From: Flavobacteriales bacterium
GTDB taxonomy: Bacteria > Bacteroidota > Bacteroidia > CAIKAF01
Direction: 5' to 3'
DNA length: 64,000 nt
NCBI GenBank assembly: GCA_022402535.1
Contig: JAKRSD010000020.1
Location: forward strand, 409,341 to 473,340
Shown: positions 37,359-40,411 of the stretch, piece by piece
Layout: each line of letters begins with the position of its first letter
Numbering within the stretch: the stretch's first letter is position 1
Program-made: the position numbers and the translations under genes
The notes under the pieces: model-generated
Told to the model about the DNA's origin: nothing
The model's input: only the letters and a program-made list of their open reading frames with translations
Databases searched by the model: none

Positions 37359-37432
37359 TCCTCCTTAGCTCAGCTGGTTAGAGCACATGACTGTTAATCA
37401 TGGGGTCCTAGGTTCAAGTCCTAGAGGGGGAG
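37359..37432 (+). tRNA. tRNA-Asn (anticodon GTT)
   Basis: 74-nt cloverleaf: acceptor TCCTCCT/AGGGGGA (one T-G wobble), D arm GCTC/GAGC, anticodon arm CATGA-CTGTTAA-TCATG with anticodon GTT, variable loop GGGTC, T arm CTAGG-TTCAAGT-CCTAG, discriminator G at 37432. CCA is not encoded. A promoter lies upstream and a strong hairpin terminator follows at 37447. Its 3' part from 37403 is duplicated at 37774. Confidence 0.97.
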
Positions 37433-37560
37433 CAGGACAAAAAGAGAACCCCGGCAACAAGCCGGGGTTTTTTTATAATATATGATTGATGGCTTCGTAC
37501 AGTGTTTATATTCTTTATTCCCGTCGTCTGGACCGCTATTACACGGGCACTACAGATAAT
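37403..37560 (+). repeat. Direct repeat, copy 1 (tRNA 3' end + terminator + GIY-YIG 5' part)
   Basis: This copy starts in the variable loop of tRNA-Asn, runs through the tRNA 3' end, the terminator hairpin and the first 24 codons of the GIY-YIG gene. Copy 2 is at 37774-37946, 371 bp downstream, with only a few substitutions apart from a replacement of GTC by an 18-bp palindrome. Confidence 0.9.
37447..37474 (+). terminator. Terminator of tRNA-Asn
   Basis: Stem CCCCGGC/GCCGGGG with AACAA loop (37449-37467), followed by seven T. It separates the tRNA from the GIY-YIG ORF that starts 14 bp later, so the ORF needs its own or read-through transcription. Confidence 0.9.
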
Positions 37561-37782
37561 GTTGCCCGTCGTCTTTCCGAACACAATGCAGGCTTATACA
37601 CGGGCAGTTACAGCGTTAAAGGCATACCCTGGGAGCTGTTTTATGAGCTTTCGTGCCCCGACGGCAGCACGGCCTATAAAATTGAGGGTCACATAAAACG
37701 GATGCGCTCAAGGGTTTATATAGAAAATCTGAAAAAACATCCAGAAATAGGGAAAGTCCTTCTTTTGCGTTACGGGTCCTAG
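37489..37782 (+). CDS. GIY-YIG nuclease family protein, tRNA-linked
   Basis: 97 residues from the ATG at 37489. Minimal GIY-YIG domain: YSVYILYSRRLDRYYTGTT covers the paired VYI/YTG strands, NVARRLSEHN has the catalytic Arg, and STAYKIEGHIKRMRSR the catalytic Glu. Such small proteins (UPF0213-like) are presumed DNA nucleases without a separate DNA-binding domain. Unusually, the last codons (Gly-Ser-stop) are supplied by the copied tRNA 3' end starting at 37774. It lies directly after the tRNA terminator and its 5' third is repeated downstream as a truncated copy, suggesting a mobile or duplicating unit. Confidence 0.88.
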   Translation: MASYSVYILYSRRLDRYYTGTTDNVARRLSEHNAGLYTGSYSVKGIPWELFYELSCPDGSTAYKIEGHIKRMRSRVYIENLKKHPEIGKVLLLRYGS

Positions 37783-37788
37783 GTTCAA

Positions 37789-37806
37789 CCCCGAAAGCTT
37801 TCGGGG
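37789..37806. repeat. 18-bp perfect palindrome in the displaced tRNA T-loop
   Basis: CCCCGAAAGCTTTCGGGG is fully self-complementary and sits where the intact tRNA has GTC, in the T-loop. It may be a recognition or insertion end of the unit, or form a hairpin in the transcript. Confidence 0.75.
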
Positions 37807-37834
37807 CTAGAGGGGGAGCAGGACAAAAAGAGAA

Positions 37835-37860
37835 CCTCGGCAACAAGCCGGGTTTTTTTT
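37835..37860 (+). terminator. Weakened copy of the tRNA terminator
   Basis: CTCGGC-AACAA-GCCGGG (one T-G wobble) followed by eight T; the duplicated and slightly decayed version of the hairpin at 37447. Confidence 0.6.
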
Positions 37861-37874
37861 ATAATATATGATTG

Positions 37875-37955
37875 ATGCCATCGTATAGTGTTTATATTCT
37901 TTATTCCCGTCGTCTGGACCGCTATTACACGGGCACTACAGACAATTGGGCATAA
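37875..37955 (+). pseudogene. Truncated GIY-YIG nuclease copy
   Basis: ATG at 37875 opens 26 codons; after Met-Pro the first 24 residues match the intact GIY-YIG protein (SYSVYILYSRRLDRYYTGTTDN), then sequence diverges and a TAA follows at 37953. All catalytic residues beyond the first strands are lost. Confidence 0.85.
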
Positions 37956-38047: not shown

Positions 38048-40411
38048 ATGAACCCCATGAAAAAAGTGATTACCTTCATTGTTTCTTTTTTATCCTTCAG
38101 TTCTTTTAGTTTTTCCCAATCTGAATCGATGCAAGCATCTTTACTGGGAAAGGCGCAACCCGAATATTTTTTATCAAAAGCAGAGCGGTTGGGATGGGCG
38201 GAAATTGTTTCGGAGAGAAAAGAATTCTCTTCTGTTTTTCAAATAGACAATAAAAAGATTGCCTATTCAAGTACTGTTCCTGTTAATTATCGAAACTCAG
38301 AAGGGATGTTGGTTCCCGTGGATATACGACCCCATTCCTCTCCAATTGGTTGGATTGCCGCCCAGCAGCCCATTCCTGTCAAAATTACAAATCAAGGGTC
38401 TTTTTTTGTAGGAAATAACGAAGTGGAGTATTCAAAGACGGTTTCAATAAACGGCCAAAATCCAATTCAAACCCAAGGAAGACAGGAAGGGCAGTTTATT
38501 TTTTTTGATAATATCACAAATGGGGTTAGCAAACAGATTATTGCCCGGCACGGAAGTGTAAAATATAACTATATCCTTCATCATCAGCCCGCTTTAACGT
38601 CAAGTAACTGGACCGCAAAAGAAAAAATAAAACTCCCCGAGGGCTTCTCTATTCTAAGAAATAAAAACGAAGAAACAGGTGCGCCACAGTGGTTTGTTTT
38701 TAATTCAAAAGAAGAGCAGGAGGGGGCTATTTTTCCTGTGGTGTGTTATGATGCTGCCGGAAAAACACAAACAGGTAATATGGAACTGATTGTGCGGGAA
38801 GGAGTAGAGGCAATTTTTGAAATAACGGTTTCTAAAGATTGGTTGTCCGACCCGGAAAGAATATATCCTGTTATTGTAGATCCATTGGTTACCGGTCCCA
38901 CAACAACGTGGTCCGGAGGCGTTTTTCCATCCTGTTTTTTCCCTAATTATTATTCTGATGCTACCATTAATGTGTTTGTTCCCGGTGGCATAACGGTAAC
39001 CAACCTGTCTTTAACAACCAACTTTTATGCAAGCCCGTTCACCACCACGGTAATGGGAGACGGACGAATGTATTTTAGCACATCATGTGGCCAAACCAAT
39101 GTGTTTCAGGTTCAGGGAACAGACGGAAACCTCCCCGGAACAGCCTATCTGGATAACTTTAACGTTCAAAATCCACTCATGTGTTGTACCCCCCAGTCAT
39201 GTTCGGCATCCAACGTAGAAATTCGCATGCACCTTTCCAGAACAAGTAACGGCGCCGCCTGTAATTCTACCTTTTTGTATTATGATGCCGGTTCGCTATG
39301 GCCCTTCAGTGCTTACATTGAAGGCTATACTCCAGAGGCCTATGGCTCAGAAATGATTTTTCAACCCTCTACGATTTGTGCCAACGACTGTGATGTAAAT
39401 GCCCGTATTTATGCAAGATATGGTGTTCCTCCATTTTCATTTACTCATCCATGGGCCTCCGCCCCTGTGGATACAGGAAACGCAAATGGCTGTTCTGTGG
39501 GAAATACAATTGCCCAAATGCCGCTTCAGATTCCGAACTGTCCCAATTTTTGTGATCCATCTACAGTACTCCAGGTTCCTCCTCCCGTGGTAACGGACGC
39601 CTGTGGGGCAACAGTTTCTTTCTACGACGCCTTTTATACGTTGAATATAAAACCGGCAGCCACATTAACCCCCATTCAGGATACAATCATTGTTTGCTCA
39701 GACGAGCCGATAAACATAGAGTGGGTTTCTTGTCTTCCCGGCGCCGAAATAAGCTGGTATGGAAGTGGCCAAACGGGAATTGGTTTTACTCACAGCGAAA
39801 TTATTTCTAACGAAACAAATGTGCCACAGCCTTACGCATATATCGCCAGCCCGGAGCTAAACGGATGCAGCGGCCCAGAGTCAGAAGTGTATGTAATCGT
39901 TTTTCCCTTTGTTTCTTCTGCATTTTCTGCAGAACCAACCTCGGCCGTTATTAACACTCCTGTAATTTTTACGGACCAGACACTGTTAAACGGAAACACG
40001 GCAACAGGGTGGGAGTGGACTTTTGGAGATGGGCAAGTTTCATCAGAACAAAACCCACAACATGTTTATGCCCAACCGGGAACGTATCAGGTTTGTCTTA
40101 CTGTTGTAACAGAGCTGGGCTGTTCCGAAGAGATTTGTGACAGCATTACGGTGGTTCCTGCTGAATTGGAACTTCCTAACATCATAACCCCCAATGGGGA
40201 CAATGTCAACGATTTTTTAGCGATTAAATATTTAGAGTTTTATCCGGCAAACAGAATCAAGGTCTATAACCGCTGGGGAAATATAGTATTTGAAAAAAAG
40301 GATTATATCAATGATTGGAGCCCTAAAAACATTTCTGATGGCGTCTATTTTTATGTATTGACTCTCGATGGGGGAAAAGAGTATTCGCAGATATTGCACA
40401 TTAATAAGTAG
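38048..40411 (+). CDS. Secreted protein with PKD domain and T9SS type B C-terminal domain
   Basis: 787 residues. Signal peptide (hydrophobic to SFSFSQ). A beta-rich N-terminal part of unknown function (to ~270), a Cys-containing middle, then a PKD domain (about 625-705, GWEWTFGDGQVSSEQNPQHVYAQPG in pieces) and a CHU_C/type B sorting domain at the C-terminus starting LPNIITPNGDNVNDF and including IKVYNRWGNIVFE. Type B domains direct transport through the type IX secretion system to the cell surface; PKD domains are adhesion/spacer folds. Starts follow the GIY-YIG repeat region. An alternative start is the ATG at 38057. Confidence 0.9.
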   Translation: MNPMKKVITFIVSFLSFSSFSFSQSESMQASLLGKAQPEYFLSKAERLGWAEIVSERKEFSSVFQIDNKKIAYSSTVPVNYRNSEGMLVPVDIRPHSSPIGWIAAQQPIPVKITNQGSFFVGNNEVEYSKTVSINGQNPIQTQGRQEGQFIFFDNITNGVSKQIIARHGSVKYNYILHHQPALTSSNWTAKEKIKLPEGFSILRNKNEETGAPQWFVFNSKEEQEGAIFPVVCYDAAGKTQTGNMELIVREGVEAIFEITVSKDWLSDPERIYPVIVDPLVTGPTTTWSGGVFPSCFFPNYYSDATINVFVPGGITVTNLSLTTNFYASPFTTTVMGDGRMYFSTSCGQTNVFQVQGTDGNLPGTAYLDNFNVQNPLMCCTPQSCSASNVEIRMHLSRTSNGAACNSTFLYYDAGSLWPFSAYIEGYTPEAYGSEMIFQPSTICANDCDVNARIYARYGVPPFSFTHPWASAPVDTGNANGCSVGNTIAQMPLQIPNCPNFCDPSTVLQVPPPVVTDACGATVSFYDAFYTLNIKPAATLTPIQDTIIVCSDEPINIEWVSCLPGAEISWYGSGQTGIGFTHSEIISNETNVPQPYAYIASPELNGCSGPESEVYVIVFPFVSSAFSAEPTSAVINTPVIFTDQTLLNGNTATGWEWTFGDGQVSSEQNPQHVYAQPGTYQVCLTVVTELGCSEEICDSITVVPAELELPNIITPNGDNVNDFLAIKYLEFYPANRIKVYNRWGNIVFEKKDYINDWSPKNISDGVYFYVLTLDGGKEYSQILHINK

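Follow-up and report, generated by a model that had tools for sequence, protein, structure and literature searches.

Behind tRNA genes of the Bacteroidota lies a recurring arrangement in which a short GIY-YIG nuclease gene is matched both to a type of tRNA and to a type of palindrome, a pattern suggestive of selfish DNA of an undescribed kind that lives in tRNA genes. An intact tRNA gene adjoins the unit on one side, a partial copy of that gene broken by a palindrome stands on the opposite side, units form tandem amplifications, and in close relatives the site is empty. On balance, we regard it as probable that these are homing-like selfish nuclease units that insert into tRNA genes, restore the tRNA and carry a cognate palindrome, and that they constitute a Bacteroidota family. 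The sequences suggest that the nuclease is responsible for movement and cutting and that the neighbouring tRNA gene is its target.

The locus was found in the window, i.e. the entire stretch of 64,000 nucleotides that was analysed (contig JAKRSD010000020.1 of a Flavobacteriales bacterium), and comprises the following features:

37359 to 37433, + strand: intact tRNA-Asn (GTT), the home gene of the unit (ARAGORN; Rfam RF00005; the orthologous tRNA-Asn in L227 is empty)
37403 to 37773, + strand: unit 1, 371 bp, comprising the tRNA 3′ part, terminator and GIY-YIG gene (direct repeat spacing 371)
37447 to 37474, + strand: tRNA terminator (hairpin and T run), directly before the gene (inverted repeat I3; sequence)
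37489 to 37782, + strand: GIY-YIG nuclease gene, 97 aa (PF01541, E 3e-12; lineage L, 119.6 bits with A2)
37774 to 37819, + strand: broken copy of the tRNA 3′ part, tRNA positions 45-59 and 63-75 (repeat comparison)
37789 to 37806, no strand: perfect 18-bp palindrome CCCCGAAAGCTTTCGGGG within the T-loop of the copied tRNA part (genome-wide pattern search)
37836 to 37860, + strand: second copy of the terminator
37875 to 37955, + strand: truncated second GIY-YIG gene (homology up to 37946; stop codon at 37953-37955)

The segment GGGTCCTAGGTTCAA at 37403 is found again at 37774, a spacing of 371, and the 140 nt from 37421 to 37560 are repeated at 37807-37946 with 96% identity, far above chance. 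The repeats, open reading frames and Pfam match bear out the original observation of a 371-bp unit made of a tRNA 3′ end, its terminator and a GIY-YIG gene, followed by a truncated second unit. That description named the tRNA, terminator and gene correctly but overlooked the palindrome, which is lineage-specific and central to the unit's anatomy. In the tRNA copy, the GTC of the T-loop is swapped for the palindrome, which is why the repeat spacing shifts from 371 to 386. The gene begins about 15 nt past the T run of the terminator and its stop codon, TAG, falls within the tRNA copy; the second copy of the reading frame retains about 24 homologous residues before it breaks off and comprises 26 codons. 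Downstream of the unit, the gene at 38048-40411 carries a T9SS sorting domain, which places the host in Bacteroidota. A known RNA family within the repeat was considered and rejected, as the only Rfam match is the tRNA itself.

When the same GTDB family was searched with PF01541, two kinds of short GIY-YIG gene emerged. One is YhbQ-like and has no tRNA nearby (e.g. L001, L005 and L007); L001 (G000:C29) lies in the window's own genome. Genes of the other kind come after a tRNA for Asn, Asp, Met or Leu, and a 3′ end of that tRNA follows them, often exact over 24 nt; in one genome (G006), four 404-bp units are lined up behind tRNA-Asp. A profile built from twelve tRNA-linked proteins then detected relatives in 149 of 296 Bacteroidia genomes (E<=1e-15) and, phylum-wide with other classes included, in 149 of 392 genomes (E<=1e-20). 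Among 106 distinct Bacteroidia loci scoring at least 80 bits, in 78 the same strand carries a tRNA no more than 250 bp upstream (median distance 48 bp; 14 kinds of tRNA), against a chance expectation of about 0.2 linked loci in 106 if 45 tRNA genes per 3.5 Mb are assumed; this locus set is biased towards the subfamily because its profile was made from tRNA-linked proteins, although the association had already emerged with the neutral Pfam model. At a further nine loci the tRNA is directly downstream, and 28 of the 106 are arrays of 2-10 units. A tRNA copy reaching the tRNA 3′ end is present at 62 of the 78 linked loci, and in a second locus set 24 of 33 are tRNA-linked, 21 of them with a tRNA copy. 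GIY-YIG genes behind tRNAs with remnants downstream, for which a search of related genomes had been suggested, are therefore common, and the duplication is neither unique nor devoid of a link between these genes and tRNA ends: the link is phylum-wide and comes with tRNA copies, arrays and empty sites. A contig scan with the window protein returned only two relatives, from Cytophaga and Gelidibacter, and both belong to the same type.

The window protein belongs to the GIY-YIG superfamily by its PF01541 match. The core residues are present, and Y7, Y18, G20, R28, H32, E66 and K70 are invariant among the 12 members compared. Its nearest solved structures are UPF0213 (1zg2, E 1e-16) and the structure-specific nuclease SLX1 (E 1e-8), and the YhbQ-like genes of the same genomes, which belong with UPF0213, are not beside tRNAs. 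Proteins of tRNA-linked units consist of a single domain of 80-100 aa, and no DNA-binding domain beyond the catalytic one was found in the protein that could account for isotype specificity. SegB, by comparison, carries further sequence beyond its nuclease domain; what these proteins share with SegB-like ones is the GIY-YIG domain only, and there is no PHROG family match at E 0.01. The genes are under purifying selection: dN/dS is mostly 0.05-0.3, whether species or the copies of a single array are compared, and the few higher values each rest on few changes. On a protein tree of 140 proteins and 83 columns, in which many forks are unresolved, isotype labels require 31 changes versus 58.7 when shuffled, and host family requires 59 versus 66. 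Protein lineages thus track tRNA isotype far more than host family.

Across loci, the order of parts is intact tRNA, terminator, gene and then a partial tRNA copy interrupted by a palindrome, with unit sizes of 300-460 bp and the GIY-YIG gene as the only gene inside. Mirror-image units also exist (L112 and L164), in which a broken 5′ copy is followed by the gene and the intact tRNA, and at L088, L126 and L111 broken 5′ copies with the same palindrome precede the intact tRNA. The location of the palindrome is largely fixed per lineage: it follows tRNA position 38 where the type is Asp or Met, lies between 25 and 36 in one Asn type and between 28 and 46 in Val. Where a remnant starts and where it breaks vary among loci. 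The T-arm region, originally proposed as the special target, does not hold that position, given that break positions differ by lineage and that copies of the 5′ end exist. In the L100 array, a before/after pair can be read directly (GAGTC[CAGTCCCCG]CTAC to GAGTC[TCCGCCCGAGGCGGA]CTAC), in which the palindrome replaces a short stretch of 9 nt.

Some loci depart from this plan. At L011 in G011 (minus strand, 465-1300), an array of ~136-bp units behind tRNA-Asp contains broken tRNA copies and palindromes but lacks any nuclease gene, which is how a non-autonomous derivative is expected to look; farther on, past this array, lies a GIY-YIG gene. At L101 (minus strand, after 1314 and 1830), two copies differ in that one has cleanly lost the stretch between two identical palindromes, which suggests recombination at palindromes.

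Each nuclease lineage has its own palindrome. Over 63 loci, comparing pairs that differ in both tRNA and host family, palindrome distance tracks protein distance (rho 0.31, a value reached in none of 1000 shuffles, p<0.001), and the correlation persists when shuffling is confined within isotypes (p 0.004). Loci at tRNA-Met illustrate the point: lineage-M proteins come with a TCCGCC..GGCGGA palindrome, and lineage-L proteins (L132 and L161) with the CCCGATA..TATCGGG type. In the second locus set, all five lineage-L members with a detected palindrome have an L-like one, be it at Asn, Leu or Met tRNAs. The loop length of the palindrome is variable, while its stems stay paired.

The same palindromes are also dispersed through genomes. 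In a search that scored a limited number of candidates per genome, the L palindrome occurred in 83 of 296 genomes with up to 63 copies, and a reversed control occurred almost nowhere. Without control for genome kinship, here as in the counts that follow, 26 of the 28 genomes with lineage L have dispersed copies, of which usually one per genome is linked to a tRNA. The L palindrome is present in 69 of 149 genomes with these GIY-YIG genes versus 14 of 147 without, and at three or more copies in 16 of 25 L-only versus 5 of 27 M-only genomes (p 0.0016). The M palindrome, likewise uncorrected for kinship, occurs in 21 of 30 M genomes versus 23 of 147 GIY-negative ones; its contrast between M and L-only genomes is non-significant (p 0.09). 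A dispersed palindrome matched to the nuclease lineage is therefore clear for lineage L and weaker for lineage M. That the palindromes are mere background repeats was rejected: the window's only L-type site is the one in the tRNA copy, most L-palindrome loci have it in or near a tRNA unit, and a palindrome is found in 63 remnants across loci, compared with at most 63 scattered copies per genome. Elsewhere in the window's genome, a second L copy, CCCCGATAGCTATCGGGG, is intergenic and away from any tRNA (L178 position 989-1006, G000:C19). Lineage-L palindromes recur every 403 bp at G177:C44:277432-278253, that is, as an array, and those at L190 and L194 (G136) fall within long open reading frames of 341 and 418 aa and may be located in coding sequence.

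These observations raise the question as to whether the palindrome, rather than the tRNA gene, is the real partner of the nuclease. It would then be moved or processed as a hairpin, as in REP/RAYT systems, with the tRNA gene merely a safe home and the arrays a product of breaks at palindromes. Palindrome type indeed goes with nuclease lineage and not with tRNA, scattered copies track the lineage, and variable loops on paired stems suit a folded single strand; the L101 deletion between identical palindromes and the replacement of 9 nt in L100 fit as well. As SLX1 is among the closest structures, there is also room for a palindrome-hairpin substrate. Yet, this alternative leaves unexplained both the clustering of proteins by tRNA isotype and the constant carriage of a tRNA piece. 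Many genomes with scattered palindromes, moreover, have no detected matching lineage, and the preference of scattered sites for flanking hairpins is weak (p 0.035), for which reason we do not claim that they target the loops of other hairpins. We consider it rather unlikely overall.

Whether units insert at all can be judged from relatives that lack them. At the window's orthologous site in G011 (L227; PfkB 79% identical), tRNA-Asn is followed by a plain terminator with no unit, and homology between the two loci stops exactly at the tRNA 3′ end. The comparison with a unit-free relative that had been suggested at the outset thus yields a clean empty site and a defined boundary. The 12 species of genus g24 have a single full elongator tRNA-Met apiece; in three the unit is present, eight are clean, and in the remaining one the unit lies ~39 kb from tRNA-Met (L243/L079, G209:C27:145-39618). 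At this last locus, the remnant is followed by sequence resembling the native terminator of the empty relatives.

A history without mobility would instead posit an old pair of tRNA and GIY-YIG gene that descends vertically, forms tandem copies by unequal crossing-over and has its decayed copies hit by unrelated palindromic repeats. Three species of genus g9 do have the same orthologous insertion, with synonymous divergence of up to 0.45, so units also descend vertically and for long times. A comparison of L040 with L042 for concerted evolution was set aside, as the flanks are rearranged and the orthology is unsure. Likewise, at 28 of 46 loci, the window among them, the 40 nt downstream of the intact tRNA resemble those downstream of its copy. 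In the remaining 18 the two stretches are unrelated, and terminators differ among units of the single L123 array, indicating that serial insertion or replacement occurs. Repeated insertion, as first proposed for the window, is thus partly supported: it fits the loci whose 3′ flanks differ, a pattern not expected of plain tandem duplication; in the window itself, the terminator is common to both copies, so the second unit may have arisen by local duplication. Mirror-image units, the poor fit of the protein tree to host family, lineage-specific palindrome positions, the match between palindromes and nuclease lineage, and clean empty sites within the same genus all speak against immobility, which we regard as quite improbable.

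To our knowledge, no RNase activity has been established for the GIY-YIG family of these units, their tandem tRNA copies are broken and non-functional and the match to a defence model is weak (E 0.002), which makes it highly improbable that they serve the host or act against phages, with the nuclease as a tRNA toxin or the unit amplifying tRNA genes depleted by a tRNA-cutting defence, even though lineages are isotype-specific and phage T6 SegB provides a precedent. The latter amplifies tRNA-Tyr and thereby escapes Septu (PMC13096335).

SegB is also the closest parallel to the homing-like reading that we favour. As with free-standing homing endonucleases of this type, the gene adjoins its presumed target gene, presence is patchy and relatives have empty sites. 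SegB of T4 and T6 is a free-standing GIY-YIG gene beside tRNA genes of many isotypes and cuts inside them at the motif RAWTSGAAC, the reverse complement of a T-loop sequence (PMC13096335, PMC2988022). It drives tandem repeats of tRNA and segB, with a truncated segB at a junction (PMC13096335). In contrast, SegB is phage-borne, whereas the Bacteroidota units are chromosomal, have a separate lineage for each tRNA type and contain broken tRNA copies as well as a cognate palindrome. A phage or plasmid origin was rejected, with no match in 50,697 phage records (E 1e-5) and no copies in the plasmids or viral contigs searched. On the homing-like reading, the Bacteroidota unit would work like phage SegB, yet it is no member of its family.

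Mechanistically, the nuclease might cut an uninterrupted tRNA gene of its own isotype, or a palindrome-bearing copy, upon which recombination repair would copy the unit into the matching tRNA gene, with the carried tRNA piece preserving a functional tRNA. Arrays could arise by unequal recombination or by re-insertion. The palindrome would mark the recognition site of the nuclease and may spread elsewhere as a small non-autonomous repeat. Several points count against such homing: the intact tRNA beside the gene should itself be a target; an insertion can, as in g9, be inherited vertically for long; the 28 loci with the same 3′ flank at both copies match what plain duplication predicts; the phages, plasmids and viral contigs searched hold no copies; and the protein has no extra DNA-binding domain behind its isotype specificity.

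Other known systems resemble the units in part. In REP/RAYT (TnpA-REP) systems, scattered short palindromes likewise match the lineage of an associated nuclease gene, but RAYTs belong to the HuH/Y1 tyrosine transposases and are not linked to tRNAs (PMC2817692, PMC8266576), whereas the Bacteroidota units have a GIY-YIG gene tied to a tRNA and a lower palindrome copy number (up to 63). Integrative elements at tRNA 3′ ends also restore the gene with a tRNA 3′ copy and leave a remnant at the far side; unlike them, the units have no integrase and no fixed crossover point, measure only 300-460 bp and include 5′-end versions. The distal 178-bp repeats of E. coli tyrT (rtT) are arranged in tandem downstream of the tRNA gene, each with a tRNA 3′ end, but contain no nuclease gene and are unrelated in sequence. 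Among the open PMC papers searched, none dealt with GIY-YIG genes and tRNA genes in Bacteroidetes or with the palindrome sequence. We regard the units as tRNA-associated free-standing GIY-YIG nuclease systems with REP/RAYT features, possibly a class of their own. More tentatively, and with the odds somewhat against it, they could represent minimal mobile DNA of a categorically new class: ~350 bp in which a single-domain nuclease is combined with a fragment that restores the tRNA and with a cognate palindrome. Each lineage would be tuned to one tRNA gene and would also spread its palindrome through the genome as a non-autonomous repeat.

If the homing-like reading is correct, many of the scattered GIY-YIG genes of Bacteroidota would be selfish units in tRNA genes instead of stray repair genes, and would be some of the smallest known mobile units. 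Such units would constitute a bacterial chromosomal counterpart to SegB and would explain families of short palindromic repeats in Bacteroidota that have no known mover. Matched sets of nuclease, palindrome and tRNA would then be available for direct biochemical tests.
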